NCBI GenBank assembly: GCA_019454045.1
Contig: SKCR01021385.1
Coordinates: 27,776-91,775, forward strand
Direction: 5' to 3'
DNA length: 64,000 nucleotides
DNA from: Zanthoxylum bungeanum
Taxonomy: Eukaryota > Streptophyta > Magnoliopsida > Sapindales > Rutaceae
Part shown: positions 6,431 through 60,002 of the stretch, one piece after another
Position numbering within the stretch: the stretch's first letter is position 1
Layout of the letters: every line of letters begins with the position of its first letter
Position numbers and translations under genes: made by a program
The notes under the pieces: model-generated
What the model was told of the DNA's origin: nothing
Databases searched by the model: none
What the model saw: only the letters and a program-made list of their open reading frames with translations

Positions 6431-6477
6431 ACGGACCTGATGCATGAAATAGGATGCAATACATAAACAGAAAGTAA

Positions 6478-15565: not shown

Positions 15566-15831
15566 AAAATGGTATCAGAGCGAGTCTGATCAAGGACGCC
15601 TGATATGAATAGCCCTTTAAAATTCAATTTTAGTTTAATCATTAATTTATACATGCATGTGTTTATTTAATTTGATTAAATAAAGTAAAAGCATCTTTTG
15701 TTGGAAAATCCCCGATTTAAATAAGGTTTTAAGAAAGTGACTAGTATTAGGAATACTTGTTTTTCTTTCGTCCGCCTTGTCAATACGGATGTAAATGTTT
15801 TCATGATGCTATGGCTGTAACGTGCCAAAGC
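15566..15831 (+). mobile_element. Second internal start of the large-LTR Copia, truncated
   Basis: AAAA and TGGTATCAGAGCGAG (primer site at 15570) followed by about 250 bp collinear with 8828-9093. It stops inside the first leader repeat at 15831, where unrelated sequence begins. Finding a new 5' internal region after what should be the 3' LTR implies unequal recombination between LTRs, or that copy 2 is also the 5' LTR of a second, truncated element. Confidence 0.85.
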
Positions 15832-24210: not shown

Positions 24211-24211
24211 T

Positions 24212-33237: not shown

Positions 33238-33467
33238 TGGATATAACCATCCTTTTCAACCTGATAAATGAAAATGAATTGGCTTCCATTTTTCAGGCCT
33301 CTTGCTCATCTAATCCAATTATTAATCTAAATGTGCACTTTGATTTTATCATCTTTCTGCAGTTGTAATGAAAGAAAAATGATAATCTTAGTCATGTAAT
33401 TTTGGAAACCATTTTTACCGTTTTGTATGAGATTATATTCAAATTACTCAGTGATTTGATTAGGATT

Positions 33468-34244
33468 TGTTGATGGTGTTTTTAGGCACTATGGTATTTA
33501 AGACAGCACGACAGGGGCAAAAGGGTAATTTTCTCCTTGGTCAAAGATCATTAATACCGACCCGACCACATGAGTGAGTGGCCGAGAACTTTATGATCCG
33601 ATAACCGACCACTTTGGTTCGGATGACCGAGCACTATCAGATCGGTAGCAGCATTCTCAGCACAAATGACCATCATGACCGACCACATGAAGACCGAGCA
33701 TAGGGCAAGACATGATCGGGAAAATAAGGCATTATATCCATATGAGATAAGATAATAAGTTATCCTACTGTCATGGGGTAAACTAGTAAGTCAATGTCCT
33801 AATATGATAAAGGAAGTAAAAGTAGTTTTGACTAGGAATCCTTATGGGAAAAAGGAATAGTTTCAGCTAGGAAACTCTTGTACAAATAGGAATATGATTT
33901 CTGTATTATTATAAATAGAAGGGTAGAGCATGTGTAAAGGAGCATCTAAAAATCATCACAAGAGTAAGAGATTAGTGTCATAGAGCTCTGATTTGTAAAA
34001 GCAAAGAGGAGATCTGAGGAGTGAATTTGAGTAATAAAAAGTATCATCTTGTTTGTGCCCGTGGACGTAGGTCGGATCCAAATCCACCGAACCACGTTAA
34101 ATCTCCTTGTTGATTGGTGTATTTATTTGTTTTTCGCTAAGTTTGCCTTTGGTCCCCCATAACCAAACAAATTCACTATTGAAGGAGGATTTCCTCGGGA
34201 GTGATATTCCCATATTGCCCTGAGACCAAAATCCACCGTCAACA
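33468..34244 (+). repeat. 5' LTR of the gag-only element
   Basis: TGTTGATGGTG...CACCGTCAACA, 777 bp. A TATAAATA box lies at 33910-33917. Differences from the 3' LTR: T/A near 33715, G/A near 33866, one extra T near 34132, and C/T near 34196. Confidence 0.95.
33910..33917 (+). promoter_or_regulatory. TATA box (TATAAATA) of the gag-only element
   Basis: TATAAATA followed by GAAGGG within the LTR, about 330 bp before the LTR end. It is identical in the 3' LTR. The position suits the U3/R border; the transcription start was not determined. Confidence 0.6.
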
Positions 34245-34246
34245 GT

Positions 34247-34264
34247 TGGCGCCGTCTGTGGGGA
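34247..34264 (+). other. Primer-binding site of the gag-only element
   Basis: TGGCGCCGTCTGTGGGGA, two bases after the LTR. Compared with the 3' end of plant tRNA-Asp it matches at TGGCGCCGT and GGGGA, with a mismatched middle, as seen in many plant Gypsy elements of the Tat group. The tRNA assignment is tentative. Confidence 0.75.
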
Positions 34265-34297
34265 ACCTCACAAAAAGCAGTTCACGTGATAAGACAA

Positions 34298-36613: not shown

Positions 36614-36691
36614 AGTTTTTTCTCAAAGTATTACGCAGAAGAACTGTAAGGAGGACAGTATGTCCCCAAATATGAATAAAACATTTTTTAT

Positions 36692-36698
<7 letters not shown>

Positions 36699-36733
<35 letters not shown>
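36699..36733 (+). repeat. A35 homopolymer downstream of gag
   Basis: Thirty-five consecutive A residues, 86 bases after the gag stop and soon after an AATAAA at 36674. It may be an internal poly(A) captured from a processed transcript, or simple slippage. Confidence 0.85.
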
Positions 36734-36734
<1 letters not shown>

Positions 36735-36860
36735 AAAATTGAAAGACATATTCAAAGACAGGGGACATACTCAAACGCCCACTACATAAAGACAGTCGGG
36801 CGCCAAGGCCCCTTGAACCATCAGCTCGAGACTGGATCTTATTCCGCCGGGGTCGTTCAG

Positions 36861-37440
36861 CTCGGGGTCGGGCACGTCCCACCGAGTCAGCCCTTCGGAC
36901 TGGGGACGTAACATTCCCTCAGATCCAAGTGCCTTTTTCTACTCGGGGTCGGGTATATCCCACCGAGTCAGCCCTTCGGACTGGGGACATAACATTCCCC
37001 CAGGTCCAAGTGCCTTTTTCTACTCGGGGTCGGGTATATCCCACCGAGTCAGCCCTTCGGACTGGGGACATAACATTCCCCCAGGTCCAAGTGCCTTTCT
37101 CAGCTCGGGGTCGGGTATATCCCACCGAGTCAGCCCTTCGGACTGGGGACGTAACATTCCCTCAGGTCCAAGTGCCTTTCTCAGCTCGGGGTCGGGTATA
37201 TCCCACCGAGTCAGCCCTTCGGACTGGGGACGTAACATTCCCTCAGATCCAAGTGCCTTTTTCTACTCGGGGTCGGGTATATCCCACCGAGTCAGCCCTT
37301 CGGACTGGGGAGGTAACATTCCCCCAGGTCCAAGTGTCTTTTTCAGCTCGGGGTCGGGCTATGTCCCACCGAGGCATGCTCCTTTGGACTGGGGAGGTAA
37401 CATTCCCCCAGAGCCAAGTGTTTCATTCAGCTCGGGGTCC
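36861..37440 (+). repeat. 81-bp tandem array, eight units
   Basis: CTCGGGGTCGGG begins units at 36861, 36942, 37023, 37104, 37185, 37266, 37347 and 37430, a period of 81 bp (last step 83). Within a unit CTCGG...CCGAG and GGG-tata-CCC pair into a short hairpin. Because 81 is a multiple of three, one plus-strand frame stays open for 192 codons (36929-37507) with a 27-residue repeat, and parallel frames are open on the minus strand. I treat these as repeat artefacts. Confidence 0.92.
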
Positions 37441-38100
37441 CCAGGGACATACTCGATGCATAGGATCCGTAAGAAGCATAGCACGGGGAGGGATGATACC
37501 CCTGTGACGATTGCTTGCTCCAGTGTTACCGAACACTCTCTGATCCTCACTTACCCGATGTAATGGATCCGTGGGAAAGCATAGCACGGGGGATAGTGAT
37601 GCCCCCGTGACGATTGCTGGCTCCAGTGATGCCGGGCCTAAGGAGGAATGTGCCCTTAGTATCCCGGACACTCTTTGATCCATTCATCACCTCGGATCCG
37701 CGAGAGATGCAGCACGGGGATGAGTGGTGCCCCTGTAGCGTGTGCCTACTCCAGCGTGGTAAGGAGGAGCCCTCATATGATACACAGGCTCCCCAGTGAA
37801 CCGACGTGTAGAGGATGTGCCCTTACCAATCAAACGCTCTATTTGATCCGAATCCTGGTTCGCCGGGACACTGAATTGAAAGATTCAGAATTGTGTTTTG
37901 GAGGCCTCTTGCAGGACGCTGTTTTGAGGCATCCGTGCTGTTGTTTACATTTGTAAAAAGTTTTCTTTTGGGACAAGTGCCGAGTCACCCCCCACCTTTT
38001 TGGTCTTGTTTTTCAAAGTTTTGATTTTGTTTTTCGCTGGTCTGGCAATGGGACGCCCGTGCCAGATTCGGTAGGGCTTCACAAGGTTGATTCAATTCCC
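37441..38100 (+). other. Non-coding region with CATAGCACGGGG-type repeats
   Basis: Two loose copies of a GGATCCGT-(G/A)AGAAGCATAGCACGGGG-like segment at 37464 and 37566, plus a shorter one near 37695. Part of the internal region of the gag-only element. No coding evidence. Confidence 0.5.
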
Positions 38101-38129
38101 TTCTGAGCAAGTCCCAAAGATTACCTGGC

Positions 38130-38580
38130 ACAGGGCTGGATTCGTTCCGCCGAGGCCACTTGTTTATTCAGCTCGGGGCTGGATTCGTTCCGCCGAGGCC
38201 ACTTGTTTATTCAGCTCGGGGCTGGATTCGTTCCGCCGATGCCACTTGTTTATTCAGCTCGGGGCTGGATTCGTTCCGCCTATGCCACTTGTTTATTCGG
38301 CTCGGGGCTGGATTCGTTCCGCCGATGCCACTTGTTTATTCGGCTCGGGGCTGGATTCGTTCCGCCAAGGTCACTTGGTTTCTCTCAGCTCGGGGTCGGG
38401 TTACGTCCCACTGAGTCCGTCCCTTTTTGGTCTGGGTACGTAATATCCCCCCAGGGCCAAGCGTTCATCTCAGCTCGGGGTCGGGTCGTGTCCCACCGAG
38501 TCCGTCCTTTTGGTCTGGGGACGTAACATTTCCCCCGGAGCCAAGTGTTCATTTCAGCTCGGGGTCGGGTTACGTCCCAC
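38130..38580 (+). repeat. 43-bp tandem array and further 84-bp units
   Basis: Six units of CTCGGGGCTGGATTCGTTCC plus CGCCGAGGCCACTTGTTTATTC-type sequence recur every 43 bp from about 38130 to 38375. Three longer units resembling the 81-bp array follow at about 38390, 38474 and 38558. The CTCGG...CCGAG pairing seen in the first array is kept in several units. All lie upstream of the polypurine tract. Confidence 0.88.
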
Positions 38581-38796
38581 CGAGTCGGCCGTCGTCAGCA
38601 TAAGGGCAAAGCATTGTCTCCACGGGTAGATATCGGGATCCTCGTTGACTGAGCACATGAGGGTGGCAGGAAGGACCAGATTTGCAGCCAAGACATTTTT
38701 CTTTGCGATTCCTGGAGTGACCACCGACGGATTCATCGGCACACCATCTTTTTTATAGTTCCCGGCATCAACTCGCAAACTCGTTGTTACCGAGAA

Positions 38797-39584
38797 CTAG
38801 GGGACAGATGTTGATGGTGTTTTTAGGCACTATGGTATTTAAGACAGCACGACAGGGGCAAAAGGGTAATTTTCTCCTTGGTCAAAGATCATTAATACCG
38901 ACCCGACCACATGAGTGAGTGGCCGAGAACTTTATGATCCGATAACCGACCACTTTGGTTCGGATGACCGAGCACTATCAGATCGGTAGCAGCATTCTCA
39001 GCACAAATGACCATCATGACCGACCACATGAAGACCGAGCATAGGGCAAGACATGAACGGGAAAATAAGGCATTATATCCATATGAGATAAGATAATAAG
39101 TTATCCTACTGTCATGGGGTAAACTAGTAAGTCAATGTCCTAATATGATAAAGGAAGTAAAAGTAGTTTTGACTAGGAATCCTTATGGGAAAAAGGAATA
39201 GTTTCAACTAGGAAACTCTTGTACAAATAGGAATATGATTTCTGTATTATTATAAATAGAAGGGTAGAGCATGTGTAAAGGAGCATCTAAAAATCATCAC
39301 AAGAGTAAGAGATTAGTGTCATAGAGCTCTGATTTGTAAAAGCAAAGAGGAGATCTGAGGAGTGAATTTGAGTAATAAAAAGTATCATCTTGTTTGTGCC
39401 CGTGGACGTAGGTCGGATCCAAATCCACCGAACCACGTTAAATCTCCTTGTTGATTGGTGTATTTATTTGTTTTCGCTAAGTTTGCCTTTGGTCCCCCAT
39501 AACCAAACAAATTCACTATTGAAGGAGGATTTCCTTGGGAGTGATATTCCCATATTGCCCTGAGACCAAAATCCACCGTCAACA
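38797..39584 (+). repeat. Polypurine tract and 3' LTR of the gag-only element
   Basis: CTAGGGGACAGA ends at 38808, then TGTTGATGGTG begins the 776-bp LTR, which ends GTCAACA at 39584. The TSD GGATT follows. Confidence 0.93.
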
Positions 39585-39819
39585 GGATTTAACTACAATG
39601 TAATGCTGTATCTACATTTTTTCCCTTTTTTTTGGTTACAAGTCGTTACCCTCAAGTTTATCTGAGGTGTCAAAGCATTCCTAATAAGTTCCGATCAAGA
39701 AGAAAAGAAAAAAAAAACACACAAAAAAACAAAAGAAAAAAAAAGTCTTTGTAAACTTCAAAATTTTCGAACATGGAGTGTTAGGCAAATCATTGTAACC
39801 AATAACGTTGTATAATTAT

Positions 39820-43049: not shown

Positions 43050-45453
43050 TGTATGGGTTTTATTGCGGATATCCGGTAACGCAGCGGAACAGTGGAAAAT
43101 CAGAATTTTCCGATTTCAAAAATTTTTCTCGGATTAATAAAATAAACTTATTTATTTTATTATCCAATAATCAAATTATGAAATAAAATATTATAAATCA
43201 AATTTATGTGAATTTACCGAATTACCCTTAAACATAACATTTTGTTTATTTTAATCCGAAATTGTTCAAAATAATTTTGAATGATTCTAAATCATTTCTA
43301 GGATGATTTTAACATGTCCCAAATGTCAAAGTATAATTTGCAACAAAAAAACCCAAAAAACTTAGCCAAGGCCGAGAGCCTACAAGGGTTGGATAATTGT
43401 GCATTTTGCACTTCCAATATTCAAAACACATTAAGCCAAAATCCAATCAACCCAATATTTTACATGCATCATATACACATCCAAATACACCATATAAATG
43501 AAAAGCCCCAAATTTGGAAGTGGTCTTAAACCCTAATTTTTCAATTTCTTCAAATTGGACAAATTAGACCAAATTAACAAAATCCAATACTTCAATCATG
43601 TTTCTTCCATTCAAATCAAGTATCAACGCAATGAAATAACTATAGATCAAATTTAGGTCATTTAAGAGTGAGTCAACAACTCTAGATTAGCAACAAGTTT
43701 CTCAAACTTTCAAAAGTATGCTTATTAACGCATTAGAAACATCTTTTGAATTTTATACATACATAACCTTATCAACAAACTTCCATCAAACAAAAACACC
43801 AAGAATAAAGAAAATAATAACAAGAAAACATCATAGCATATAGCCTAGAACAAAAGAAACATTTTTCTCTCTAATAGTAAGTTGAAGAAACTTACTAAAA
43901 TTCCAAGTTTTGCTTGTTTTTCTTTATATTTCTCTCTAGCTTCTTTTGTTTCTTCAATGGAGTTTTTGTATAAAGTGTATTATGTTAGTAAACCCTAAAT
44001 GAAACAAAACAATATATATTTGCCAAATAAAGCCCTTGGCCGAATTTTGCTAGTAAAAAATATCTAGATATTTTTGCTTTTATTTCATTTAATTAGCTTT
44101 ACAACTTGTTAACTTTAATCATCAAACCATTTAATGAATTAAAGTTAGTCAAAAATTGCAACTCAAGCCATTAATAAAATATCATAACTTTAAGATATTT
44201 ATGTTTTAATTATTAATTAAACATTTAATAATTAATTAATTAAATACAAATATATTAAATATATGTATTATATTTACAATAAATATCAAATACATATATA
44301 TATATATACATTTTTATAATATTAGTCAAATATCTCAATTTGACAATTAATTAATTTGTATTTGAATTAATCAAGCATTAAATGCAAATACATAAAAATT
44401 AAGGAAATGACTATCGGGTCTCTTCACATGTATTTTGCGTTTAACCTTTAAATGACTTTATAAATAATCAACATTATTTATAATTGTTGCCCTAGTTCTC
44501 TACGAGTATATTTCATTAGTGAGACTCTCTAGATTCAGGCATATCCGTCACGAAATCCAATTTCGTGTCCATAATTTATCCACCTGTAAATTATGACGAT
44601 CACAGATAAACTCGCTGAATCATACAGGTCGAGGTCATGGCAAATGTATAATTCCTCCGTCACAGGTATCCAGATAAATCCCAGAGATATAGATGTAAAC
44701 TTCAAATCTCTATAGGGATTATCCAGTCGACTATTCTATTAGCAATCTCAAAAAGAACATTTAGAACTAACTTCTAAATTGTACCACGGGAGTTTTTATC
44801 TGATTGATAATCATATGGACTACCTATGCTATGATACACAGAACTGACAGATCCTATCTCGATACACACATGACACCCTGAGGATCTATCTACACCCAAC
44901 GAACAGGCGGAGGTCTGATCTTAATAGATCGGTGACGTGACTGCCATCTAAGTGTAGAAGATGTCTCATGTGCCCACAATGGCATCTCAAGTCTAAGAAT
45001 CACAAGTGCTACTCAACCCGATAAGATTCTTATTGACGTTGGTGTATCATCCATTAAGAATCTTCGGTGAGTCATTCAGTGTTTATCCGCTATAAACACC
45101 TACATGTCTATACTAGTCTCCAAGACTTATGATTCATTGAGAAACCATTGGAATCATATATTCCATTATACGACATGTACCGGTCTCAACAGGTTTACTT
45201 TACTAACCAAGTAGTGTAAACATTGACCAGGAACTGTCTGAGAATGACAACGTCATGATACTACTCAATGTCAGTTGCGACGTTTTTGCAACAGCACCAT
45301 GACTAGTCATTCTAAGGTAATTACGTCTTTACAATATTAAAAGATATATTATATTATAGAAACTGCATATATTATTCAAAATAATAACGTTTTACAGAAG
45401 TATTCATAAAGAAATACAACCGGGAATCGGTGCTCTGAGCACCAACCCCAACA
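43050..45453 (-). mobile_element. Copia solo LTR (2,404 bp) inside the transposase gene
   Basis: Minus-strand start TGTTGGGGTTGGTGCTC at 45453 and end ...AAAACCCATACA at 43050, with a perfect TSD AGACA (43045-43049 and 45454-45458). It is related to the large LTRs at 1576-8827 and 12790-15565: shared starts, and a shared 44450-44700 segment in reverse. Its first bases contain a perfect inverted repeat, GGTGCTC-T-GAGCACC (45429-45443). Removing it with one TSD copy restores the hAT reading frame. Confidence 0.93.
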
Positions 45454-45667
45454 AGACATGCTTATCTGCTTGGGAAATTGATGGGGTAATGATTGTGACA
45501 GTTGACAATGCAAGCTCTAATGATGTTGCTATATATTATTTGAGGATAAAAATGAGAACATGGCCAACCACTATTCTTCAAGCTAAGAATCTACATGTTA
45601 GATGTGTTGCACATATCTTGAATCTAGTTGTAACAGATGGTTTGAAAGAGGCTAGCAAGTCAGTTGA
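45454..45667 (+). pseudogene. hAT transposase, catalytic-core segment
   Basis: Reads CLSAWEIDGVMIVTVDNASS and NDVAIYYLRIKMRTW, then HVRCVAHILNLVVTDGL. These correspond to the hAT core, with the VDNASSND Asp motif and the CxxH-like CVAHILNL motif. The segment is open and ends at KSVD, where the tandem-repeat retroelement inserted. Joining across that element at one GTTGA copy keeps the frame. Confidence 0.9.
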
Positions 45668-46333
45668 TGTGGATGCTGGATTTCGGCCGAGGTCCACAAT
45701 CAGAATTTGTAGGTTGGGGGCATTAGCGATCCTGCAAGACAAAGGTAGAATGAGCGGGAGTAGACTACCCACCGGTGTGGTGGGTGCCGGGGGCACTCCG
45801 ACGCCCAAGTCAGTAGTATGAAATGAGTAGTAAATGCATAAAATGTGAAAGCAAGGCTTATTATTACCTTAACTTTCTTATAGTGGCCGTGAGGGCGATG
45901 ATATGTGTTTTGAAGAAGGGAATTCTCTGAGAACTTTTGTCTACGAACAGTAGCTAGTAAGCCATCGAGAAGCCTGTCTAGAACTTTGAATTATCTCCCC
46001 TTTTATAGATCTGAAAAGAGATTACTCTGTAGCTGTGATAAGTGCTGACCTCTCTGGCAGATGAGCCCACAACGTGCTTTGGATTCAACTTTCGGCGTGG
46101 AAGAATATTTGCATGTGTTTGTGTTTTTAGAAAAAGAGGAATAGTTAGTAACAATTGTTTTATGCTGTCTACTTATTTGGCTTTTCATTTGTAGAGTTAT
46201 GTACCGATGGAATAAAGTCTTTTGGGCTGGGTTCTTCCAATATGGTTTTTAAGGGCCAATATTTGTGGGCTTTTGGTATTGAATTTTGATGTGAAAAGAC
46301 AATTTTACCCCTGGCCCAAATTTGGCACGTACA
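45668..46333 (-). repeat. 3' LTR of the tandem-array element
   Basis: TG...CA on the plus strand, from TGTGGATGCTGG to GGCACGTACA, 666 bp. It has one extra G (AAAAAGAGGAATAG) compared with the 5' LTR. Confidence 0.95.
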
Positions 46334-46352
46334 GTTTGTCCCCTACTCTCTA
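46334..46352 (-). other. Polypurine tract of the tandem-array element
   Basis: Minus strand GAGAGTAGGGGACAAAC immediately before the 3' LTR. The AGGGGACA core is shared with the polypurine tract of the gag-only element at 38800, which may mean a related helper. Confidence 0.8.
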
Positions 46353-46399
46353 AGTCAAGAAGTCCTTGACTTGGAGAGTATTTCAATATATATCGAATA

Positions 46400-47925
46400 C
46401 AACAAGATGTATCTCGTACCAGTCAAGAATGTACTAGTTCATGTTTCATACGACAGAGTGAATTCAATGCATGGTTTATGAGTAGTCCAAGTCTTCAACT
46501 TGGCTTGACACAAGCCATGGGGAATGTCCCCAGTCGACTGAACCATAATACGGTTCAGGAGTATATTCCATACGATAAGTGTAAACTGGACAGAGGAAGT
46601 CCAGGTCTTCAACTTGACTCGGCATGATTCGTGGGGAATGTCCACAGTCGACTGAACCAGATGAAAGTTCAGGAAAATCTCTATACTGCCGGTCAAGGAC
46701 CAGGGGATCTAGACCAGATGAAGGTCATGTGCTGAACTTGACTCGTTATGAGCCATAGGGGATGTCCCCAGTCTACTGAATCAAATAAAGGCCAGGACAA
46801 TCTCCGTACTACTGGTCAAGGACCAGAAGAATCTTCAAATTTTTCTAGTCCAGATGAAGGTCATGTGATGAACTCGACTCTACATGAGTCCATGAGGGAT
46901 ATCCCCAGTCGACTGATCCGGACGAAGATCAGGATAATCAATTGACTCTATATGAGCCATATGGGATGTCAACGGTCGACTGATCCAGTTGAAGATCAGG
47001 ATAATCAATTGACTATATATGAGCCATGGGGGATGTCCCCAGTCGACTGATCCAGTTGATGATCAGGATAATCAATTGACTCTATATGAGCCATGAGGGA
47101 AGTCCCCAGTCGACTGATTCAGATGATGATCAGGATAATCCCCATACTACGGGTCAAAGGACCAGGGGAATTAACAATGTCGTCTGACCAGATGAAGGTT
47201 ATATATTGACTCTACTTGAGCCATGGGGAGTGTTCCCAGTCGACTGAACCAGACGAAGGTTCAGGATAATCTCCATACTACTAGTCATGGACCAGTAGAG
47301 TTTACAATGTCTTCTGGACCAGATGAAGGCCAGGTCTTCAACTTGACTCTACATGAGCCAACGGGGGATGTCCCCAGTCGACTGAACCAGATGAAGGTCA
47401 GGATAATCCCCATACTACGGGTCAAAAGACCAGGGGAATCTACAATGTCGTCTGACTCTACTTGAGCCATGAGGGATGTTCCCAGTCGACTGAACCAGAT
47501 GAAGGTCAGGATAATCAATTGACTCTTTATGAGCCATGTGGGATGTCCCCAGTCGACTGAACCAGATGAAGGTCAGGATAATCCCCATACTACGGGTCAA
47601 AGGACCAGGGGAATCTACAATGTCGTCTGACCAGATGAAGGCCAGGTCTTCAACTTGACTCTACATGAGCCAATGGGGGATGTCCCCAGTCGACTGAACC
47701 AGATGAAGGTCAGGATAATCAATTGACTCTTTATGAGCCATGGGGGATGTCCCCAGTCGACTGAACCAGATGAAGGTCAGGATAATCCCCATACTACGGG
47801 TCAAAGGACCAGGGGAATCTACAATGTCGTCTGACCAGATGAAGGCCAGGTCTTCAACTTGACTCTACATGAGCCAATGGGGGATGTCCCCAGTCGACTG
47901 AACCAGATGAAGGTCAGGATAATGG
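46400..47925 (-). repeat. Array 3: 67/137-bp higher-order repeat with CAGTCGACTG
   Basis: CAGTCGACTG, a perfect 10-bp palindrome, or a one-base variant marks 14 units. Examples are at 46531, 46906, 47040, 47107, 47375, 47483, 47550, 47687, 47754 and 47891. Late spacings alternate 67 and 137 bp, giving a repeat of about 204 bp. GGGG-atgt-CCCC beside it can form a hairpin. Older units near the 3' LTR are more diverged. Confidence 0.9.
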
Positions 47926-47989
47926 GTATATTGTCGAATGAGTTCATCAACAAGTTCCAAGATATAGGCTTGTAGATGTAGACTGCGAT

Positions 47990-49700
47990 GAACATCAAGT
48001 CTCAAGTCATAACTATATGTGGTATCTACAACAATTCCCAAGCTACATATGTAGATGTCGATTGGGAAAAACATCAAGCATCAAGCCATACATGCATAAG
48101 ATCAACAACAAGTCCCAAGCTACATATGTAGATGTCGATTGGGAAAAACATCAAGCATCAGGCCATACAAGCATAAGATCAACAATAAGTCCCAAGCTAC
48201 ATATGTAGATGTCGATTGGGAAAAACATCAAGCATCAAGCCATACAAGCATAAGATCCACAACAAGTCCCAAGCTACATGTAGATGTCGATTGGGAAAAA
48301 CATCAAGCATCAATCTACACATGCATGAAATCCACAATAAATCCCAAGCTACACTTATGTAGATGTCGATTGGGAAAGACATCAAATATCAAGCTATACA
48401 CGCATGAAATCCTCAATAAATCCCAAGCTACACTTATGTAGATGTCGATTGGGAAAGACATCAAACATCAATCTACACATGCATGAAATCCACAATAAAT
48501 CCCAAGTTACACTTATGTAGATGTCGATTGGGAAAGACATCAAATATCAAGCTATACACGCATGAAATCCTCAATAAATCCCAAGCTACACTTATGTAGA
48601 TGTCGATTGGGAAAGACATCAAACATCAATCTACACATGCATGAAATCCACAATAAATCCCAAGCTACACTTATGTAGATGTCGATTGGGAAAGACATCA
48701 AATATCAAGCTATACACGCATGAAATCCTCAATAAATCCCAAGCTACACTTATGTAGATGTCGATTGGGAAAGACATCAACATCAATCACATGCATGAAA
48801 TCCACAATAAATCCCAAGCTACACTTATGTAGATGTCGATTGGGAAAGACATCAAATATCAAGCTATACACGCATGAAATCCTCAATAAATCCCAAGCTA
48901 CACTTATGTAGATGTCGATTGGGAAAGACATCAAATATCAAGCTATACACGCATGAAATCTCAATAAATCCCAAGCTACACTTATGTAGATGTCGATTGG
49001 GAAAGACATCAAACATCAATCTACACATGCATGAAATCCACAATAAATCCCAAGCTACACTTATGTAGATGTCGATTGGGAAACATCCAATATCAATCTA
49101 CACATGCATGAAATCCACAATAATCCCAAGCTACACTTATGTAGATGTCGATTGGGAAAGACATCAAGTATCAAGCCATACAAGCATAAGATCTACAACT
49201 AGTCCCAAGCTACATATGTAGATGTCGATTGGAAAAACATCAAGTATCAAGCCATACAAGCATAAGATCTACAACTAGTCCCACTACATATGTAGATGTC
49301 GATTGGGAAAACATCAAGTATCAAGCCATACAAGCATAAGATCTACAACTAGTCCCAAGCTACATATGTAGATGTCGATTGGGAAAAACATCAAGTATCA
49401 AGCCATACAAGCATAAGATATGCAACTAGTCCCAAGCTACATATGTAGATGTCGATTGGGAAAACATCAAGTATCAAGCCATACAAGCATAAGATCTACA
49501 ACTAGTCCCAAGCTACATATGTAATGTCTATTGGGACTGACATCAAGTATCAAGCCATACAAGCATAAGATCTACAACTAGTCCCAAGCTACATATGTAG
49601 ATGTCGATTGGGAAAAACATCAAGTATCAAGCCATACAAGCATAAGATCTACAACTAGTCCCAAGCTACACATGTAGATGTCGACTGGGACAAATTGACT
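47990..49700 (-). repeat. Array 2: about 22 units of about 77 bp, each with a nested hairpin
   Basis: GTAGATGTCGATTGGG recurs about 22 times from 48049 to 49673, every 72-80 bp. Each unit contains TCCCAA, then CTACA-loop-TGTAG, then TTGGGA. The outer 6-bp and inner 5-bp stems persist while the loop varies (none, TA, CA or CTTA). Two subfamilies occupy separate blocks (about 48340-49140 and 49140-49700), a sign of local amplification. Confidence 0.92.
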
Positions 49701-50119
49701 TGATGAAAGTCCAAAAGAATTTTCATACTACCTAACTTGATAAAGATTGGTCGATTGGACCTAAAGGAGATCCAAGAAAGTTTTTTTTTTTATTCTACTA
49801 GGAATGATAAAAGATTCCCTATGTAGTATGGAGTTGGCAATAATAAATCAATGTAGCATGAAGATGATGACTAACCTTTGACTTAGTCTGGAGGAGTTGA
49901 CAATAATTCCAAGTTGTCTGGAGAGATTGGAAGTTTTCCATGTAGCCTGAAGTGGATAGCCATCCACATTGTCGTATGGAGAATAGTTTTGTTGTTTGGC
50001 TTTGTGTTCATGCTCCACATACACCAAGAAAGCATATTATTATTTTGACTTTCGTTGAAGCCTGCTCCTTCTTTTCTTCCACGTACTACTTGTGTCGATT
50101 CAAAAATGAGACCTTTCAT

Positions 50120-50760
50120 ATAATCATTCCATGCTACAAGTGAAGATGCTCGTATGTAGAGTCAAAAAAGCCAAGCCAAAGCACTCCATGCTACACGTGA
50201 AGATGCTAGAATGTAGAGTCAAAAAATCCAAGCCAAAGCACTCCATGCTACACGTGAATATGCTTGCATGTATAGTCAAAAATGCCTAGCCAAAGCACTC
50301 CATGCTACACGTGAAGATGCTAGCATGTAGAGTCAAAAAATCCAATCCAAAGCACTCCATGCTACACGTGAATATGCTTGCATGTATAGTCAAAAATGCC
50401 TAGCCAAAGCACTCCATGGATCACGTGAAGATGCTTGTATGTAGAGTCAAAAAAGCCAAGTCAAAATACTTCATGCTACACGTGAAGATGCTTGCATGTA
50501 GACTTAAAAAATCCAAACTAAAGCACCCAATGAATCACGTGAATATGCTTATATGTAGACTCAAAAAATCCAAGCCAAAGCACCCAATGAATCACGTGAA
50601 TATGCTTATATGTAGACTCAAAAAATCCAAGCCAAAGCACCCAATGAATCACGTGAATATGCTTATAAGTAGACTCAAAAAATCCAAGCCAAAGCACCCA
50701 ATGAATCACGTGAATATGCTTATATGTAGACTCAAAAAATCCAAAAATAAAAATGAAAGA
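50120..50760 (-). repeat. Array 1: 57-bp repeat with CACGTG in every unit
   Basis: CACGTG occurs at 50194, 50251, 50308, 50365, 50422, 50479, 50536, 50593, 50650 and 50707, exactly 57 bp apart each time. A further degenerate unit lies near 50137. There are no indels across ten units although bases vary. Because 57 is a multiple of three, 19-residue periodic frames stay open on both strands. The minus-strand (sense) one at 50518-50781 is strongly hydrophobic. Confidence 0.95.
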
Positions 50761-51689
50761 AACTACAAGTATGAAACACAAGCGAGAGTTGAATGTTTAG
50801 TGGTCAACTGGTATGTCCAAAAATGGGCAATGCAAGCCATGAAAGCAAACATGTATTGTGCTTATATGGATGTGTTAATGAAGGCGTATGTTGGCTAGGC
50901 CATGCATGATTTGTCTCTTTCTGTATGGAGTGTAGCATGGGATTTTCAAGGTGATGGGTGATAAGCTTACATCTTTTGTAGGCGTATGATGTTTATGCAT
51001 ATGGGATGGTTCGTGAATGGTGGAATAAAGAGAGGTATTATTTCCACTATACTTATCTGATGGTTTTCAAAAATCAGAATATCTTGTAGTGTCGAATGGG
51101 ACCTGGTCATTTTAAATCAAGTTGGATCCCATATGTCTTGGCCTGTGCATGGTGTTTTGTCGAATGGACCATTTCTCCTTTGCATGTGGCTTTGTCGAGT
51201 GAACCCCACAATCATCTCTTCTTTGAATATAATTTTACAGATATGATCTAGCATGTGGTCTCATAGTAGGCTATTCTTACAGTCTACATTTGTTTAAGGA
51301 CTACATGTGGCAGAGTGCTTTCTTCGGTGTAGATTGGAGATAATTACTCCAACATTTCCTTTCACACGGAAGATGTGACTTGTTGTGAAAGGTCGGCTGG
51401 TGAAATGTGATGGTTTTTTTAGTGATTAAATGGATGGTTGTTTGATGATGAATTTTCACTTGCCATATTCTTGAATGCTCATAAGAGATTGAGTTTGATA
51501 AGATAGTTGAAATGACTTGTTGCCTCATGCTACTATTGGAGATTAGTACTCGAGTTTTACATGGATCAATTTTCATCTTCCATTGATTGTAAATGTTATG
51601 TAGAGTGGCTGATTATGCCACTACAGGATCTTGTGTCTGTTTGTAAAGATTGTCGACCGAGTGGTATTTGCTTGCTATGAATCGCTAAG
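50761..51689 (-). other. Unique non-coding leader of the tandem-array element
   Basis: Between the primer site and the first array. No reading frame with recognisable homology on either strand, and no repeats. By position it is the 5' untranslated leader, where packaging and dimerisation signals would be expected. Confidence 0.6.
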
Positions 51690-51707
51690 GCCCCACGGTG
51701 GGCGCCA
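51690..51707 (-). other. tRNA-Lys primer-binding site
   Basis: The minus strand reads TGGCGCCCACCGTGGGGC, three bases after the 5' LTR. It complements all 18 terminal bases of plant tRNA-Lys as I know it (…GCCCCACGGTGGGCG plus CCA). This fixes the orientation of an element that has no coding region. Confidence 0.9.
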
Positions 51708-51710
51708 AAT

Positions 51711-52375
51711 TGTGGATGCTGGATTTCGGCCGAGGTCCACAATCAGAATTTGTAGGTTGGGGGCATTAGCGATCCTGCAAGACAAAGGTAGAATGAGCGG
51801 GAGTAGACTACCCACCGGTGTGGTGGGTGCCGGGGGCACTCCGACGCCCAAGTCAGTAGTATGAAATGAGTAGTAAATGCATAAAATGTGAAAGCAAGGC
51901 TTATTATTACCTTAACTTTCTTATAGTGGCCGTGAGGGCGATGATATGTGTTTTGAAGAAGGGAATTCTCTGAGAACTTTTGTCTACGAACAGTAGCTAG
52001 TAAGCCATCGAGAAGCCTGTCTAGAACTTTGAATTATCTCCCCTTTTATAGATCTGAAAAGAGATTACTCTGTAGCTGTGATAAGTGCTGACCTCTCTGG
52101 CAGATGAGCCCACAACGTGCTTTGGATTCAACTTTCGGCGTGGAAGAATATTTGCATGTGTTTGTGTTTTTAGAAAAAGAGAATAGTTAGTAACAATTGT
52201 TTTATGCTGTCTACTTATTTGGCTTTTCATTTGTAGAGTTATGTACCGATGGAATAAAGTCTTTTGGGCTGGGTTCTTCCAATATGGTTTTTAAGGGCCA
52301 ATATTTGTGGGCTTTTGGTATTGAATTTTGATGTGAAAAGACAATTTTACCCCTGGCCCAAATTTGGCACGTACA
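51711..52375 (-). repeat. 5' LTR of the tandem-array element
   Basis: 665 bp. It contains the minus-strand TATA box TATAAAAGGGGAG. The reading frame of the host hAT transposase resumes directly after the TSD at 52376-52380. Confidence 0.95.
52044..52050 (-). promoter_or_regulatory. TATA box of the tandem-array element
   Basis: The minus strand reads CTATAAAAGGGGAG, a near-ideal plant TATA box, within the 5' LTR and about 330 bp before its end. Also present at about 46000-46006 in the 3' LTR. With intact LTRs this promoter may be functional. Confidence 0.65.
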
Positions 52376-52380
52376 GTTGA

Positions 52381-53423
52381 CCGTATTCGACAGGCTGTAA
52401 AATTCATTAGATAATCTCCTTCTAGGCTGCAAAAGTTTAATGAATGTGTAGCTATTGAGAAAATTGATAGCAAGTGTATGTTGAATCTTGATGGTCCCAC
52501 AAGTTGGAATTCCACCTACAAGATGCTTGATGTGGCTTTGAAATTCAGAAATACTTTTGAGATATATGATGACCTAGATCCAAATTTTAGTAGAGATCTT
52601 ACATTAAATTATGATTGAGTTCATATGAATGATGATTGGAACAATATCAATAGCTTGGTAGTTTTCCTACGACACTTCTATGAGATTACATTACGTGTCT
52701 CTCGAATGAAATATTAACTGCCAATACTTTTTTGAGGAGATTACTGCAATTGATTGGTTGTTGAATGAGTTGGAGAACAGTGATGACATGGATATGAGTG
52801 CTATGGCAATAAAAATGAGGCAAAAGAATGAGAAATATTGGGGGAAAGTGACAAAATGAACAAATTGATTTACATAGCTGCCATTCTTGATACTATGAGA
52901 AAATTATAGTATGTTGAATTTGCATTAGAGCACATGTACAGAAAAGAATTAGGTGGCCAATTGGCTAAGAGTGTGAAAGATGCAATTTATGATCTATATA
53001 GGATTATAAGAAGCTTGCATCTGCAAACAGTCAGGGACCTCCAATTCTATCTTTGCTGCCTTATCATCATCTACGACTTGTGAACAAGGCAACGATCTTG
53101 CAGTTCCTGTATCAAAGCTTATGATATCCAAGTATAAGAGGTTTAGGTCTGAATCTCATAGAGGTGATGCAAAATCTGATTTGGAAAAGTATTTGACAGA
53201 GGAAGGTGAAGACGACTGTGATGACTTTGAAATTTTTCGATGGTGGCAGCTTAACTCTTCCAGGTTTCTTTTACTTTCAGAGATGGCACCTGATGTGCTA
53301 GCAATACCAATGTCAAATGTTGCATCGGAGTCAACTTTTAGCACATGTGGGAGAGTACTGGATGAATTTATGAGCTCTTTGACTCCTAAAATTGTAGAAT
53401 CCTTAATGTGTTCTCAAGATTGA
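52381..53423 (+). pseudogene. hAT transposase, C-terminal part with dimerisation domain
   Basis: Continues RIRQAVKFIR directly from the upstream segment, then TAA. Further pieces read CMLNLDGPTSWNSTYKMLDV and KLIYIAAILDTM. The final open frame starts at 53121, with the hAT dimerisation domain at about 53238-53420 (FRWWQLNSSRFLLLSEMA, DVLAIPMSNVASESTFST, LTPKIVESLMCSQD). TGA at 53421-53423 replaces the conserved Trp after SQD. Several stops and shifts lie between 52400 and 52920. Confidence 0.9.
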
Positions 53424-55700: not shown

Positions 55701-55884
55701 CTTTTTTTTTTATATATTTGTTGGAATCGCTGGAAATTTCACGGTCAAACTATCTATTTCGGGCTTAAGCGGAGCAAGTAAAACTTTCAGCTGTCTCAGA
55801 CTCTTACAAGAAACGCACTCATTGGATTCGAACTCAAGAGCTCAAGGTGAGATCTTGAACCCTACACCACCAAGTCACGCTTAT
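55701..55884 (-). mobile_element. tRNA-like SINE copy 2
   Basis: The minus strand reads GCGTGACTTGGTGGTGTAGG, GGTTCAAGATCTCACC and GAGTTCGAATCC (B-box-like), then the shared body TGCGTTTCTTGTAAGAGTCTG, and ends in an A-rich tail (the T10 run at 55702 on the plus strand). It is collinear with the other four copies. Confidence 0.85.
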
Positions 55885-57372
55885 GTAGTAGAGGGAGACA
55901 CTTATGCTTATGTAGTATTTAAAAGTAACAATTTCTCACACATATTCATTTTCAAATTAATCATTTTGTATTCTTTATCATATCAGTTAAAAAAATGTTG
56001 TGTTCAATCATAAGGTCTTCGTTATAAGTAGGATATGGGGAAAACTTGATATACGCGATCTTATCCTTTTTTTTTTTATAGAGATTATTTATAAGGTTCG
56101 AATAAACCATAACTAAACGGCTAACAATAGCAAGATGTGGATTCAGTTATAACTAATATATATACACATGTTGTAATGTTTTATTTGTGGGGAAAGAAAA
56201 ATTTAGAAAGGGAGGGCAAATGGTCACAAAGTTGCATGACTTGTGGGGTGGGGTGGGGTGGGGTAAAGTTTCCACTTCAAAGACACCAACCCTCAAAAGC
56301 AAAGCCACACCAATATTCTATTTGATTTACCCAACAATGCAATTGTGTGTGTGTCTTTATATCATTTGTTTCTTATATTTTAAAAATATTTAAGAGGATG
56401 TGTATGGGGCCGGCCCAGACAAGAAGGGCCCACATGATTGGACCTCAATGGGGCCCAAAAGTGGTTAAGGAAGCACTAGCATTATATGATATATTCCTTA
56501 CCTATGACAAAAGCAATGATGGCTGATGGCTGATGGCTAAAGCAAAGATAGTAACCCCTCCACCACCCATATAAGCATTAGCCATTAGCAAATTAGAATT
56601 TTACCAATTTGCAATAACAAGAAGCCAAAAGAAGACCAAAAGTGAACATAAATACAAGAGGAGGGGGACAAAGTGGAAGGATGTTAATCCCATCACTTAA
56701 AAAGTTTTGAAAATAAACAAAAAAAAAAAAAAAAAAAATCCCATTTGACTTTGTTATAGCTCATCATATAATTGATTGTCCTACATTTATATTATACATT
56801 AATGAGGAAATATGTCATGCATTAGCCAATCCTTTATGTGTAATATGTCTGCTACCTCCATCATGTTGAAAAAAAAACTAGCATTATTTATTTAATCATA
56901 GAAAATGTTATGAATACGGATAAATAATACAAATCTAGCCATAGATATTTATGTGGTTAGATCTGTGTCATTGATAGAGGGAAAATGAATCAATAATATA
57001 AATCTAGTCACGTAAACATTTGTGATTGGATTTATGTCATTTGTCTGTGTCTGTATCTGTATCCTGACTCTTTAATCATTTTAAACAGAAAATTTCACTC
57101 TTAATTTTTTTTTTTTTTTTAAAAATCAAAATCAAAATCTATTTGGTGGTAGAAGCTTGAAGGTTATGTTTCCATAAAAGACAATGAATGTGAATGATAA
57201 ATACAAGACATAGTATCACAAAAAGCAGACCATGGACTCAAAAAATTAGTGTAGACATCAAGAATTTAGAAAAGACTCTTTACTTGTAGTTGTTCCGTCG
57301 TGACTTAGTGTTAAAGTTTCGAATCTTACAAATAATAACTGTATTTGTATGAATAATATAGTCTATGAAGGG
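55885..57372. other. Non-coding sequence
   Basis: No gene recognised. It holds a GGGGT repeat (listed separately), an A-run at about 56720 and a short SINE-like scrap near 57290-57330 (CGTGACTTAGTGTTAAAG, TTCGAATC). Confidence 0.5.
56245..56263 (+). repeat. Four-tract G-quadruplex motif (GGGGT repeats)
   Basis: GGGG at 56245-56248, 56250-56253, 56255-56258 and 56260-56263, separated by single T bases. Four G4 tracts with one-base loops form one of the most stable intramolecular quadruplex types known. Structure in the cell is inference. Confidence 0.9.
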
Positions 57373-57530
57373 CATGATTTGGTAGTATAAGATTTATGAT
57401 CTCACATTGAGGTCCTGAATTCGAATTCATGGAGTGTATTTCTTATAAGAGCTTGAAATAGCCGTGGGTTTTACATGTTCTGCTTAAGCCCGTAAGGGGT
57501 TGTTTGACGATTAGATTTCCAACGATTTCA
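57373..57530 (+). mobile_element. tRNA-like SINE copy 3
   Basis: ATGATCTCACATTGAGGTCC and GAATTCGAATTC (degenerate B box), then TTTCTTATAAGAGCTTGAAA and TGCTTAAGCCCG. It ends TTTCCAACGATTTC, followed by an AT microsatellite. More diverged than copies 1, 2 and 5. Confidence 0.8.
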
Positions 57531-57581
57531 AAATATATATATATATATATATGAATAATATCATAAATGATATACATACAT

Positions 57582-57736
57582 AAAGTTTTCACTACTCTCT
57601 CACTGTAGCTACAGTGAGAGAGTATGAAAAATTTTATGAATGTTATTGTAGTTACAGTAAGTTATCGTAGCTCACTGTAGCTACAATAAGTTATTATAGT
57701 TCACTGTAATTACAATAAAAGAGTTGAGAAAACTTT
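57582..57736. mobile_element. Palindrome-rich miniature inverted-repeat element (155 bp)
   Basis: The ends AAAGTTTTC and GAAAACTTT are exact inverted repeats, extending with mismatches over about 30 bases. Inside is a perfect 32-bp palindrome at 57593-57624 centred on CTGTAG/CTACAG, and three further CTGTA(G/A)(C/T)TACA cores. No coding capacity. The TSD is unclear, so the superfamily is open. Confidence 0.75.
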
Positions 57737-58861
57737 CAAAAAAAAATTATTTCTCGAATAATATTTGCCCAAACTCAGTATATTTGGAACCTTTGAAAGG
57801 TCTTTTTCTTATATCAAGAGTAGACTCTCTCTCCTCCTTTCTTTTCATGTCTACAAAGACTACAATGTGATAGAGAGAGAGAGAAAGGACTGTGTCTGAA
57901 CTGATAAATACATAATAATGCCGACAGCACCAAATATGGAGCATGAAATTGCTTTCCTTTCACTTGTTGAAAGTCAATTTCATTGCTTTTGTTTTCTGCA
58001 ATATGTATGAATTATTTTGTTGCCACATGCTTAAGGGAGCAAAGTCATTGTTTCAAGATTGCAAAAATCTTTTTTTCCCCCTTTTTGTTGAAAATGGATT
58101 AATATTCAAGCTTTCCATTAGCAAATCCAAACAAAGATTTGTTCCAATCATATATTACCTATATATATACATAGTAACATTAATAAGATACCCTCTTGCC
58201 CACTTCCACTACAATTTCATAAATATCAAATTAATTACATCTTTGATTACTTTCATTACTAAAAAAAATGCAGTTTTATAGTTTAATAACAATATTAAAT
58301 TATTGATTAAAATTGTCAAAGTGATAAATGACTTTGTTTGATTATCTTGGTCCACTTCTTTTAATATTTATGTTGTATAATGATTAAGTAACTAATATTC
58401 AACAATATTGCATTTTTTAGGGGCTCATTTTAGAGGGGAAAAAAGATGGCCCTGTAGAAAAAAATTTCATTTAATGAAATGAGGGTATTTCTCAAATTTA
58501 TTAACAGAATTTGTAGTTATACTCAGCAGACCTCGAGTAATCCCATTATATATCGTATGAACTTTAGTTCATGGGCTCCGGTAGAACCCTGATTATAATA
58601 TTCTAATAAAAAATAATATTGGCCTTAATATTCAAAATTTTTATCAGTACTTGACCTTAATATCCAATCCCTGCGAGTTTTGGTATGAGCACCGTTTAAA
58701 TAAGGATTTTATTTCTATTAGAATGAGAATGGCAATACATATATCCGACTCATCTAACTAATGAGTACATAAATATATTCTCTTATTCGAACTGGATGAT
58801 TTTTTGATCTCAAATGATAATATATACATATACACACACATTCACACACACTATGTTGAGA
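57737..58861. other. AT-rich non-coding sequence
   Basis: No gene or element recognised. A CA-rich microsatellite lies at about 58830-58850. Confidence 0.5.
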
Positions 58862-59012
58862 AATCTCGCCACCAAACCACCAATTTCGGGCTTAAACGGA
58901 GCGGGTAAAATCCCCGGTTGTCTCAGATTCTTACAAGAAACGCACTCCCTAGATTCGAACCGAGAACCTCAATGTGAGATCTTGAATTCTACACTATCAA
59001 GTCACGCCCCAT
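58862..59012 (-). mobile_element. tRNA-like SINE copy 4
   Basis: The minus strand starts GGGGCGTGACTTGATAGTG, then TTCAAGATCTCACATTGAGG, GGTTCGAATCT (B-box-like), and the shared TGCGTTTCTTGTAAGAATCTG body with GCTCCGTTTAAGCCCG. Confidence 0.85.
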
Positions 59013-59842
59013 GGGGACCTATGTTGACAAGACACATCTCTTTCTTTATTTAATTTTCTTCTTTTGGGTCACATTCCTCGAGTCAAATAAACTACCACAA
59101 GAAAAATTGAAGAGCTCAAACCTTAATAAACGGCGTCAATTTCACACAATCACTACAATATTTGCATAAAAAAAAATTGTATTATATATAATACTCAATC
59201 ATTGTAGCAAAAAGATTAATTTCAACCTGGTGTGCCCAATAATAATTCTTTAATCTTTAATAATTTATTCTTGTTGCTTGCTTGTTATGAGATTTTACAT
59301 TCTGTTTGTTGCATTTCAGTCGATTTAATTAAAAAAAAAAGGTTTAATTTAGGTCAAAATGATTAGTATTTCATGTAAAGTAATAAATAATAATATTATT
59401 ACTAAGATATATTTGTGTGGCTTGACGAGTTTGTGGACACCAAGTGACGTTACTTTTTGCGCATGCCAAAAAGCAGCTGAAAATGTCACTCACATTTCTC
59501 ATCTCATTGCAGTTCTAATGTTTATTTCCAAAATTTTAAAGAATTAAAAAATATTTTTATACATGAATGTAGTATTTGAAGTATTTGGAAATTTTTTTAA
59601 TTTTTTTTATCACATTTAATGGAGGAATTCAATAAAATTAGAGTAATGATATGCTTATATAATTAAGAACATATAAATGAGTAAATAAATATTAAAAAAA
59701 AAAAAAAAAAAAACTTCTCATGATAAAATTATTTTTTTTTTATTTTTTTATCTTTATGTATAAAATTATGTGATTAATTATATGTGTATCTCATTTTTCA
59801 TAAACTTATTTTAATTCAACTTCCATTTCTTTTTAAATACAA
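59013..59842. other. AT-rich non-coding sequence
   Basis: Homopolymer-rich, no recognisable frame or element. Confidence 0.5.
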
Positions 59843-60002
59843 TCGTTTAGTGGTGTAAGATTCAGGATCTCACATTGAGGTCATGAGTTCGAATCCATAG
59901 AGTGCGTTTCTTGTAAGAGCCTGAGACAGACGAGAATTTCACTTACTCCGCTTAAGTCCGGAAGAGATATTTTGACGGCGGGATTTCCAACTATTCCAAA
60001 AA
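59843..60002 (+). mobile_element. tRNA-like SINE copy 5
   Basis: GTTTAGTGGTGTAAGATTCA, GATCTCACATTGAGGTCATG, GAGTTCGAATCC (B box), TGCGTTTCTTGTAAGAGCCTG and CTCCGCTTAAGTCCGG, ending CCAAAAACAAATCC. A loose repeat of AAATACAATC/AAAACAAATC at the two ends may be a decayed TSD. Confidence 0.85.

Follow-up and report, generated by a model that had tools for sequence, protein, structure and literature searches.

A family of non-coding LTR retrotransposons in Zanthoxylum bungeanum with tandem-repeat arrays and alternative 5' modules

An LTR retrotransposon in a 64,000-nucleotide stretch of the Zanthoxylum bungeanum genome (the whole stretch analysed, called the window below) belongs to a real multi-copy family of elements that, judging from their sequences, are non-coding. 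We consider it very probable that the element is a young member of a family that is fully non-coding and non-autonomous, is related to Tat-type Gypsy elements, is mobilised in trans and has become mosaic by recombination during reverse transcription, with its tandem arrays as by-products. The window element occupies 45668-52375 on the minus strand, an orientation given by the PBS TGGCGCCCACCGTGGGG, which reads down from 51707. The features of the element and its insertion site are as follows.

45360-45662, plus strand: left-hand part of a hAT transposase relic, up to the insertion; its frame runs on across the empty site
45663-45667, no strand: TSD GTTGA, left copy, also present in two identical assembly copies of the locus
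45668-46333, minus strand: LTR, TGTACG...TCCACA (the 3' LTR in element orientation), from the LTR alignment
46334-46351, minus strand: purine-rich PPT region AGAGAGTAGGGGACAAAC, adjoining the 3' LTR and common to the coding relatives
46344-46380, minus strand: stable hairpin next to the PPT with a 7+8 bp stem, fold z -4.29 in the window
46461-46610, minus strand: final units of the third array, decayed and with several short hairpins, fold z -3.57 (200 shuffles) and -5.0 (40 shuffles)
46580-47925, minus strand: third array, built of 67-bp units (higher-order periods of 130 and 204 bp) and including decayed ones (TRF core 46849-47923)
48024-49694, minus strand: second array, ~79-bp units, 21.6 copies (TRF)
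49911-51710, minus strand: non-coding 5' module containing the first array; the break is near 49911 and decayed homology starts at 49978
50128-50744, minus strand: first array, 57-bp units, 10.8 copies, within the 5' module (TRF)
51691-51707, minus strand: PBS TGGCGCCCACCGTGGGG, by sequence match
51711-52375, minus strand: LTR (the 5' LTR in element orientation), from the LTR alignment, with TATA box TATAAAAGG at 52042-52050
52376-52380, no strand: TSD GTTGA, right copy, flanking the right LTR
52381-53423, plus strand: right-hand part of the hAT transposase relic, beyond the insertion; it includes Dimer_Tnp_hAT at 53010-53420

The element thus has the direct LTRs with TG..CA ends, the 5-bp TSD, the PBS (which we take to be the complement of tRNA-Lys) and the PPT of an LTR retrotransposon. 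Its two LTRs, of 666 bp (45668-46333) and 665 bp (51711-52375), align with 665 identities, no mismatches and one 1-base gap. The element is a young copy that inserted recently, as an earlier note on this DNA had concluded from LTRs one indel apart and free of substitutions; the TSD, PBS, PPT and TATA box listed in that note were all found again. The insertion lies within an old hAT transposase gene, of which the left part (45360-45662), taken alone, gives no Pfam match.

Further copies were chosen from the source assembly (3.96 Gb) by LTR similarity to the window element, with 40 scored of 3838 candidates, a sampling that leaves out older and more divergent members. We fetched 17 further LTR pairs, 663-668 bp in length, all with TGTA...CACA ends and 16 with an identical 5-bp TSD. 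Setting aside L031 and L032, which are the window locus, and L044, which is the same element as L041, there are 15 distinct insertions including the window, and the TSD matches in 14 of them (L039 being the exception). The LTR search that the earlier note had proposed has brought up a multi-copy family. Its elements are 5.1-8.4 kb long with interiors of 3.8-7.1 kb. Among the 18 sequences compared, i.e. the window and the 17 fetched LTR pairs, the exact TATA string is present in 13, the PBS is intact in 17 (not in L043) and the last 95 interior bases are nearly invariant in all.

The three arrays cover 62% of the window interior by TRF. Measured between flanking anchors with the decayed units counted, they amount to 600, 1698 and 1346 bp, i.e. 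3644 of 5377 bp or 68%, so the earlier claim that arrays fill more than two thirds of the interior holds by the anchors and fails by TRF. The arrays are not related to each other, as none of the three pairs of units aligned better than shuffled sequences. The 79-bp and 67-bp arrays are present in nearly all family copies. Both anchors of the 79-bp array could be placed in 17 of 18 sequences, and between them the array spans 768-3527 bp. The 57-bp array is almost deleted in L033 and was not found in module types B, C and D. Array length evolves faster than base substitution: L034 differs from the window at 2 of 1818 non-array bases yet by 449 bp in interior length, and the 79-bp arrays span 935-2351 bp in seven distinct insertions that show no LTR substitution.

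No coding remnants were detected in these interiors. Six-frame searches of the window interior against Pfam gave no family in one run and five families in another, all below the curated cut-off. Pieces of gag, RT and RH-IN from relatives in the same genome, compared by tblastn with the window and four other interiors (5 of 18, covering all four module types), gave a best E of 0.21, and three coding elements used as controls reached 1e-73 or lower. The Pfam and tblastn searches uphold, for the window and the five interiors respectively, the earlier statement that there is no gag or pol trace; they also set the family apart from the TR-GAG type, which has a gag ORF only. In the seven of 18 interiors read, the longest ORF is 166 aa and no antisense ORF of 600 nt occurs. 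Rfam, run over the whole window, gave no match at gathering scores.

In other insertions the 5' module of the window is replaced by one of three alternatives, likewise non-coding, whose 5' ends are partly related, and hence four 5' modules sit on one chassis of LTR and 3' end. The 5' LTR is 92-100% identical in every 40-bp block (three comparisons) and the PBS shows no differences, while the next 80 bp carry 8-32 differences in all five comparisons, which include the three other module types. This drop of identity just after the PBS is the pattern that template switching by reverse transcriptase should leave; the break is resolved only to 15 bases after the PBS, a stretch similar in every type. 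A second break falls near interior position 1800 (type A versus B and C) or 5060 (type D).

The same PBS with a different 5' UTR occurs at 342 places in the genome. We fetched 11 of these, and in all 11 the R-U5-PBS region is 77-88% similar to the window (in L060 over 118 bp only). Gag-type reading frames were seen in eight, by Pfam in L054, L058 and L059, by tblastn in L051, L053 and L057, and by eye in L052 and L056. In one coding relative, C7789, the RT, RNase H, RVT_3 and integrase are followed by an array of 52 or more 68-bp units and then by the hairpin, PPT and start of U3, a region of which 97 bp align with the window; the fold z of its PPT hairpin is -2.48, its reading frames are broken and its LTRs stand at 95%. 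In another, C29173, U5-PBS is identical at 54 of 55 positions, the gag frame is open to the end of the piece read, and the 3' end again has an array and the hairpin-PPT (the interior was read at both ends only). Both coding 3' ends read have a 68-bp array homologous to the 67-bp array of the window; no 79-bp or 57-bp array turned up in the portions of the coding relatives that were read. The U3 of the relatives read is unlike that of the window family beyond about 50 bp. A search of solved structures with the RH-IN protein of a relative gave retroviral-type integrase and RNase H. The coding relatives are Gypsy elements that have the PBS and the hairpin-PPT-U3 start in common with the family, and a similar R-U5. 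In the pol of C7789, RT_RNaseH and RVT_3 stand ahead of the integrase, and a dual RNase H is a mark of the Tat lineage; this domain order suggests Tat membership for the relatives. The domains of Ogre are described as including RH and aRH (in passages of PMC7004042). A gag-only element at 33463-39589 of the window is not an obvious partner, as its PBS and LTR differ.

By alignment, the family has kept cis-acting parts of its coding relatives, namely the LTR ends, R-U5, PBS and PPT with hairpin, and it has a 3' array homologous to theirs besides two further arrays. We propose that the family transcript would be packaged by the gag-pol of these relatives, reverse transcribed from the tRNA primer shared with them and integrated by the same proteins. 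The earlier presumption that the RNA is recognised by another element's proteins is in our view right as a presumption. Two co-packaged RNAs would recombine during reverse transcription, which could place different 5' modules on one LTR/3'-end chassis, and slippage or template switching within arrays could often change the repeat number. The arrays would need no function and may be by-products of copying that lengthen the RNA. We also considered, as a rather doubtful extension, a modular protein-free parasite with a constant LTR/3'-end chassis that repeatedly captures interiors, its arrays acting as homology landing pads that promote switching with the changing family of the helper. If so, the arrays would keep the parasite recombining with that family, and arrays would have been born and decayed over several generations.

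The rate of array change and the exchange of modules are usually inferred separately. This family offers a natural record of both, with near-identical copies hundreds of array bases apart and non-coding parasites swapping modules at the point that reverse transcription predicts. The family might also serve as a nursery for satellite DNA, and a census of the family would allow a direct test of array origin by abnormal strand transfer.

LARDs have a large non-coding interior with conserved ends, are mobilised in trans and have LTRs of several kb. The window family resembles them in its large conserved interior without gag or pol, and differs in its LTRs of 663-668 bp, its interior of tandem arrays and its modular 5' half. 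TRIM and SMART elements are miniature, about 1 kb or less in total, unlike the 5.1-8.4 kb found here. In soybean, going by the title of Du et al. (2010), autonomous and non-autonomous partners reportedly swap LTRs. Here, by contrast, the LTR and 3' end stay the same across several non-coding interiors. ONSEN is a Copia family with coding capacity. Recombination of co-packaged transcripts is given as the explanation for the mosaic new copies of its transposition bursts (passages of PMC5668417); there recombination was observed in new insertions, whereas in the window family we infer it. Tat-lineage Gypsy elements, non-autonomous ones included, are known to carry tandem arrays between pol and the 3' LTR (passages of PMC7004042 and PMC11963269), and Vicient (2025) describes arrays in roughly half of the young Retand elements and in some non-autonomous ones (PMC11963269). 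The earlier impression that an array-built design lacks precedent must therefore be given up, as the Tat lineage provides one and the 67-bp array itself is homologous in two coding relatives, placed between pol and the 3' LTR. With Retand and Ogre the family shares a Gypsy chassis based on PBS and PPT and family-specific, length-variable arrays near the 3' LTR; unlike them, it has no gag, pol or 600-nt antisense ORF in the interiors read, and it has arrays in the 5' half too. The interiors in Vicient's table (PMC11963269) measure 7.4-12.9 kb versus 3.8-7.1 kb here. In non-autonomous Ogre elements that lack pol and carry FabTR arrays (Vondrak et al. 2020; passages of PMC7004042), arrays likewise persist after coding loss and are attributed to replication within a common particle, but those elements have a gag domain near the array, whereas the window family is without gag and exchanges its 5' modules. 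The family is not a new class of element; what is new relative to the documented Tat arrays is one chassis with four 5' modules and the identity drop just past the PBS.

The mosaics might have formed by ectopic recombination or gene conversion among integrated DNA copies instead of during reverse transcription, which we hold to be unlikely. The genome does hold many near-identical copies, and the identical 8446-bp element of L041 and L044, beside a 1500-bp flank with 38 differences, resembles conversion or an assembly effect; yet in each of the three other module types the break comes directly behind the PBS, as strand transfer predicts, and 14 of 15 insertions have their own matching TSD, which crossovers would scramble. 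It is very unlikely that the elements are simple deletion derivatives, each descended from an autonomous element with these LTRs that dropped gag-pol and retained its 3' arrays independently of the others. Such losses would fit the homology of the third array with the post-pol array of coding relatives, as well as L060, a non-coding element with the same PBS that retains a gag N-terminal trace (tblastn E 3e-9). However, one non-coding layout is common to many insertions, no trace of gag or pol was found in the five interiors tested, and U3 past about 50 bp differs from the coding relatives read. The earlier note had named gag-pol-coding members as what would reduce the element to a deletion copy: relatives do encode gag-pol, but most of their U3 is different and neither the 79- nor the 57-bp array turned up in what was read of them, and its view that this is no simple deletion copy agrees with an array-filled design common to 15 distinct insertions. 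Arrays collapsed or invented by the assembly, which the same note had listed as a possible refutation, are extremely improbable: the assembly contains duplicate contigs of one locus and one odd identical pair, but the same arrays recur at other lengths in distinct insertions with their own TSDs and have homologues in coding elements, so an artefact is refuted as far as the existence of the arrays goes.

It is decidedly unlikely, in our judgement, that the arrays are functional RNA, e.g. structured packaging or recruitment motifs selected for repetition. Single units can be folded into hairpins, the decayed final stretch of the third array gives a good fold (z -3.57), and the 79- and 67-bp arrays are kept in nearly all copies; against this, the 57-bp array is dispensable, array lengths vary several-fold, and the mean fold z of three interiors does not exceed that of two controls. 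The sense means are -0.86 for the window, -1.07 for L047 and -0.98 for L046, with controls at -1.18 and -0.36, and the antisense means are -1.04, -1.14 and -1.17, with controls at -0.98 and -0.54, respectively. The interiors are thus close to one control and below the other, and without a clear excess we discarded RNA structure as an explanation of the arrays. CKAC motifs, picked post hoc, are over-represented in six of seven non-array pieces and in none of five controls, which could speak for function; we read this excess, absent in the piece WIN_3 and in the controls, as a remnant of decayed arrays and not as a signal. As a separate observation on folding, two local stretches stand out, one at the decayed end of the third array and one at the PPT hairpin.

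The non-coding element of the window lies on the minus strand at 45668-52375 (6708 bp), inside an old hAT transposase gene; when its flanks are joined, the hAT frame runs through the empty site, and stop codons follow further along this relic frame. A single-base gap, and no substitution, separates its two LTRs (666 and 665 bp), and the target site duplication (TSD) GTTGA is present at both flanks. TRF reports three tandem arrays with units of 67, 79 and 57 bp; by its limits they make up 62% of the interior, versus 68% when measured between flanking anchors. No Pfam match in the six frames of the interior reaches a curated cut-off. The structural description in the earlier note, i.e. the boundaries, the LTR pair with one gap, GTTGA, the three arrays and the lack of gag and pol traces, is thus borne out.

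The LTR search of the source genome proposed in that note does reveal a multi-copy family. An LTR search of the assembly (3.96 Gb, 51,709 contigs) gave 3838 candidates, of which 40 were scored; 17 LTR pairs plus the window form the family sample. All 17 pairs have the termini TGTA...CACA, and 16 have an identical 5-bp TSD, the exception being L039. Two pairs (L031 and L032) duplicate the window locus, both flanks being identical at 300/300 bases, and L044 duplicates L041, hence the sample holds 15 distinct insertions including the window. Seven of these 15 have no LTR substitution; the sample was picked by LTR similarity and is therefore biased to young copies. The count covers complete pairs, leaving out L048-L050, which lie around single LTR matches, and the single match on C27051. 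L041 and L044 (also L022/L029) show no difference over the 8446-bp element and have identical TSDs, with 38 differences in the adjoining 1500-bp flank; an effect of the assembly, or haplotypes that underwent gene conversion, may account for this pattern.

The primer binding site (PBS) connects this family to coding elements. A pattern of the PBS with a different 5' UTR occurs at 342 places in the genome, and a reversed control pattern at none. In 11 places sampled from the first ones of the 342, R-U5-PBS is 77-88% similar to the window (for L060 over 118 bp only). A coding partner sharing the primer site had been suggested in the earlier note, and gag-type frames are indeed found in eight of these 11 places, recognized by Pfam (L054, L058, L059), by tblastn (L051, L053, L057) or by eye (L052, L056). 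The other three (L055, L060 and L061) have no gag frame, the same PBS as the window and R-U5 82-88% similar; L060 retains a trace of the gag N-terminus (tblastn, E 3e-9). Non-coding elements like these may form a clan. The 61-bp repeat of L055 matches the stretch preceding the 79-bp array, which suggests that the unique parts of the interiors are decayed older arrays.

Among the eight, the coding element most like the window is C7789, a 13.6-kb Gypsy element with LTRs 95% alike and broken frames, encoding RT, RNase H, RVT_3 and integrase domains. Downstream of pol a 68-bp repeat recurs in at least 52 units; it is 72-87% identical to the 67-bp array over short stretches, with a unit alignment score beating 300/300 shuffles. 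Its 97 bp spanning the 3' LTR border (hairpin, polypurine tract (PPT), U3 start) can be aligned to the window. A second coding relative, C29173, is identical to the window at 54/55 bases of U5-PBS; its gag frame stays open up to the end of a 601-base piece, and its array kind and hairpin-PPT are as in C7789 (interior ends only). No 79- or 57-bp array was seen in the parts read of the coding elements. Among the best 120 of 3684 protein matches to the C7789 integrase, identity is at most 68%, and the named matches (many are unnamed) are from eudicots except for two labelled Escherichia coli.

According to Vondrak et al. (2020, PMC7004042), the 3' untranslated region of Tat-lineage Ogre elements is where tandem arrays lie, some such arrays occur in non-autonomous Ogre without pol, and an origin of arrays in co-packaged copies is attributed there to Macas 2009. 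About half of the young Retand elements carry arrays, as stated by Vicient (2025, PMC11963269). Our literature search, with subscription papers mostly outside reach, found no LTR element that is devoid of coding sequence and consists of three separate arrays. The family is a known class, the non-autonomous, probably Tat-related LTR element, in extreme form, and kinship with Tat 3' regions probably explains the arrays.

The family elements range from 5101 to 8446 bp. Measured from anchor to anchor, the 67-bp array spans 561-1772 bp, the 79-bp array 768-3527 bp (17 of 18 sequences; L047 misfits the anchors), and the 57-bp array 318-714 bp in the 11 of 18 with both anchors found. The family member L034 differs from the window at 2/1818 non-array bases, yet its interior is 449 bp shorter, so array length evolves much faster than sequence. 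Array lengths vary also among copies without LTR substitutions, and we therefore infer that array length often changes before insertion or along with it.

The exchange of modules is more informative than the arrays. A single LTR and 3' end is combined with four different 5' modules, all of them non-coding and in part related to each other at the 5' end:

Type A: the window element (45668-52375, minus strand) and nine others
Type B: L041, L042 and L045
Type C: L046
Type D: L047

Between types the LTRs diverge by 1.1-1.8% on average, versus 8.1% (A-C), 14.4% (A-B) and 28.7% (A-D) in the first 177 interior bases. Identity in 40-bp blocks is 92-100% along the 5' LTR and drops immediately past the PBS. 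Base by base, all five comparisons give 4-11 differences in 365 LTR positions, 0/21 in PBS plus leader, then 8-32 in the 80 positions that follow, the first one past the PBS falling at element position 702-710. Further breaks lie near interior 1800 (A versus B and C) and near 5060 (D). Gene conversion may also produce such a mosaic, but it has no expected preference for the PBS as a break. The contrast between LTR or 3' end and post-PBS sequence is the pattern predicted by a switch between two co-packaged RNAs, in which U3, R, U5 and the 3' end would come from one parent and the post-PBS sequence from the other. Co-packaged RNAs recombine in ONSEN, as a 2017 study (PMC5668417) describes. The shared ends and primer site, the amplification of the family, the mosaic and the change in array length are observed; beyond these, the non-coding element would be transcribed from its LTR, gag-pol of Tat-type relatives would package the RNA and integrate the copy, and template switching would exchange modules between RNAs.

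Folding z-scores of three family interiors give no clear sign that RNA structure is generally in excess. One local feature occurs in the non-coding family as well as in two coding relatives:

46344-46380: hairpin directly before the PPT (also in L064 and L066-L067)

Its fold has z -4.29 in the window and -2.48 in C7789, and both of the coding relatives examined have it. In the window, the third array's decayed end likewise folds well (z -3.57). Pairing is predicted from energy and few changes, so our claim is conservation rather than a proven structure.

The window holds further repeats. A second LTR element at 33463-39589 has the TSD GGATT, LTRs at 33468-34244 and 38809-39584 (~99.5% alike), and a PBS, TTGGCGCCGTCTGTGGGG, unlike that of the non-coding element. 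It encodes a gag frame of 802 aa stop to stop (Retrotrans_gag), followed downstream by 81-, 43- and 84-bp tandem arrays; no pol was found in three frames scanned, and its make-up resembles that of a TR-GAG, with gag only, to which arrays of its own are added. A Copia-type coding stretch at 16946-25988, with gag_pre-integrs and Pol_BBD in 21013-21759, is enclosed by direct repeats (16946-18697 and 24225-25988, 93%). The duplication of 1572-9092 and 13380-15831 (three pieces, 95-98%, the first copy interrupted) represents nested insertions in an older repeat, with an inverted relative near 43420-45208 (76-83%). Several repeat copies of ~150 bp in both orientations at 55711-60002 are possibly a MITE family, and a very stable fold lies near 57551-57700 (z -11.7).
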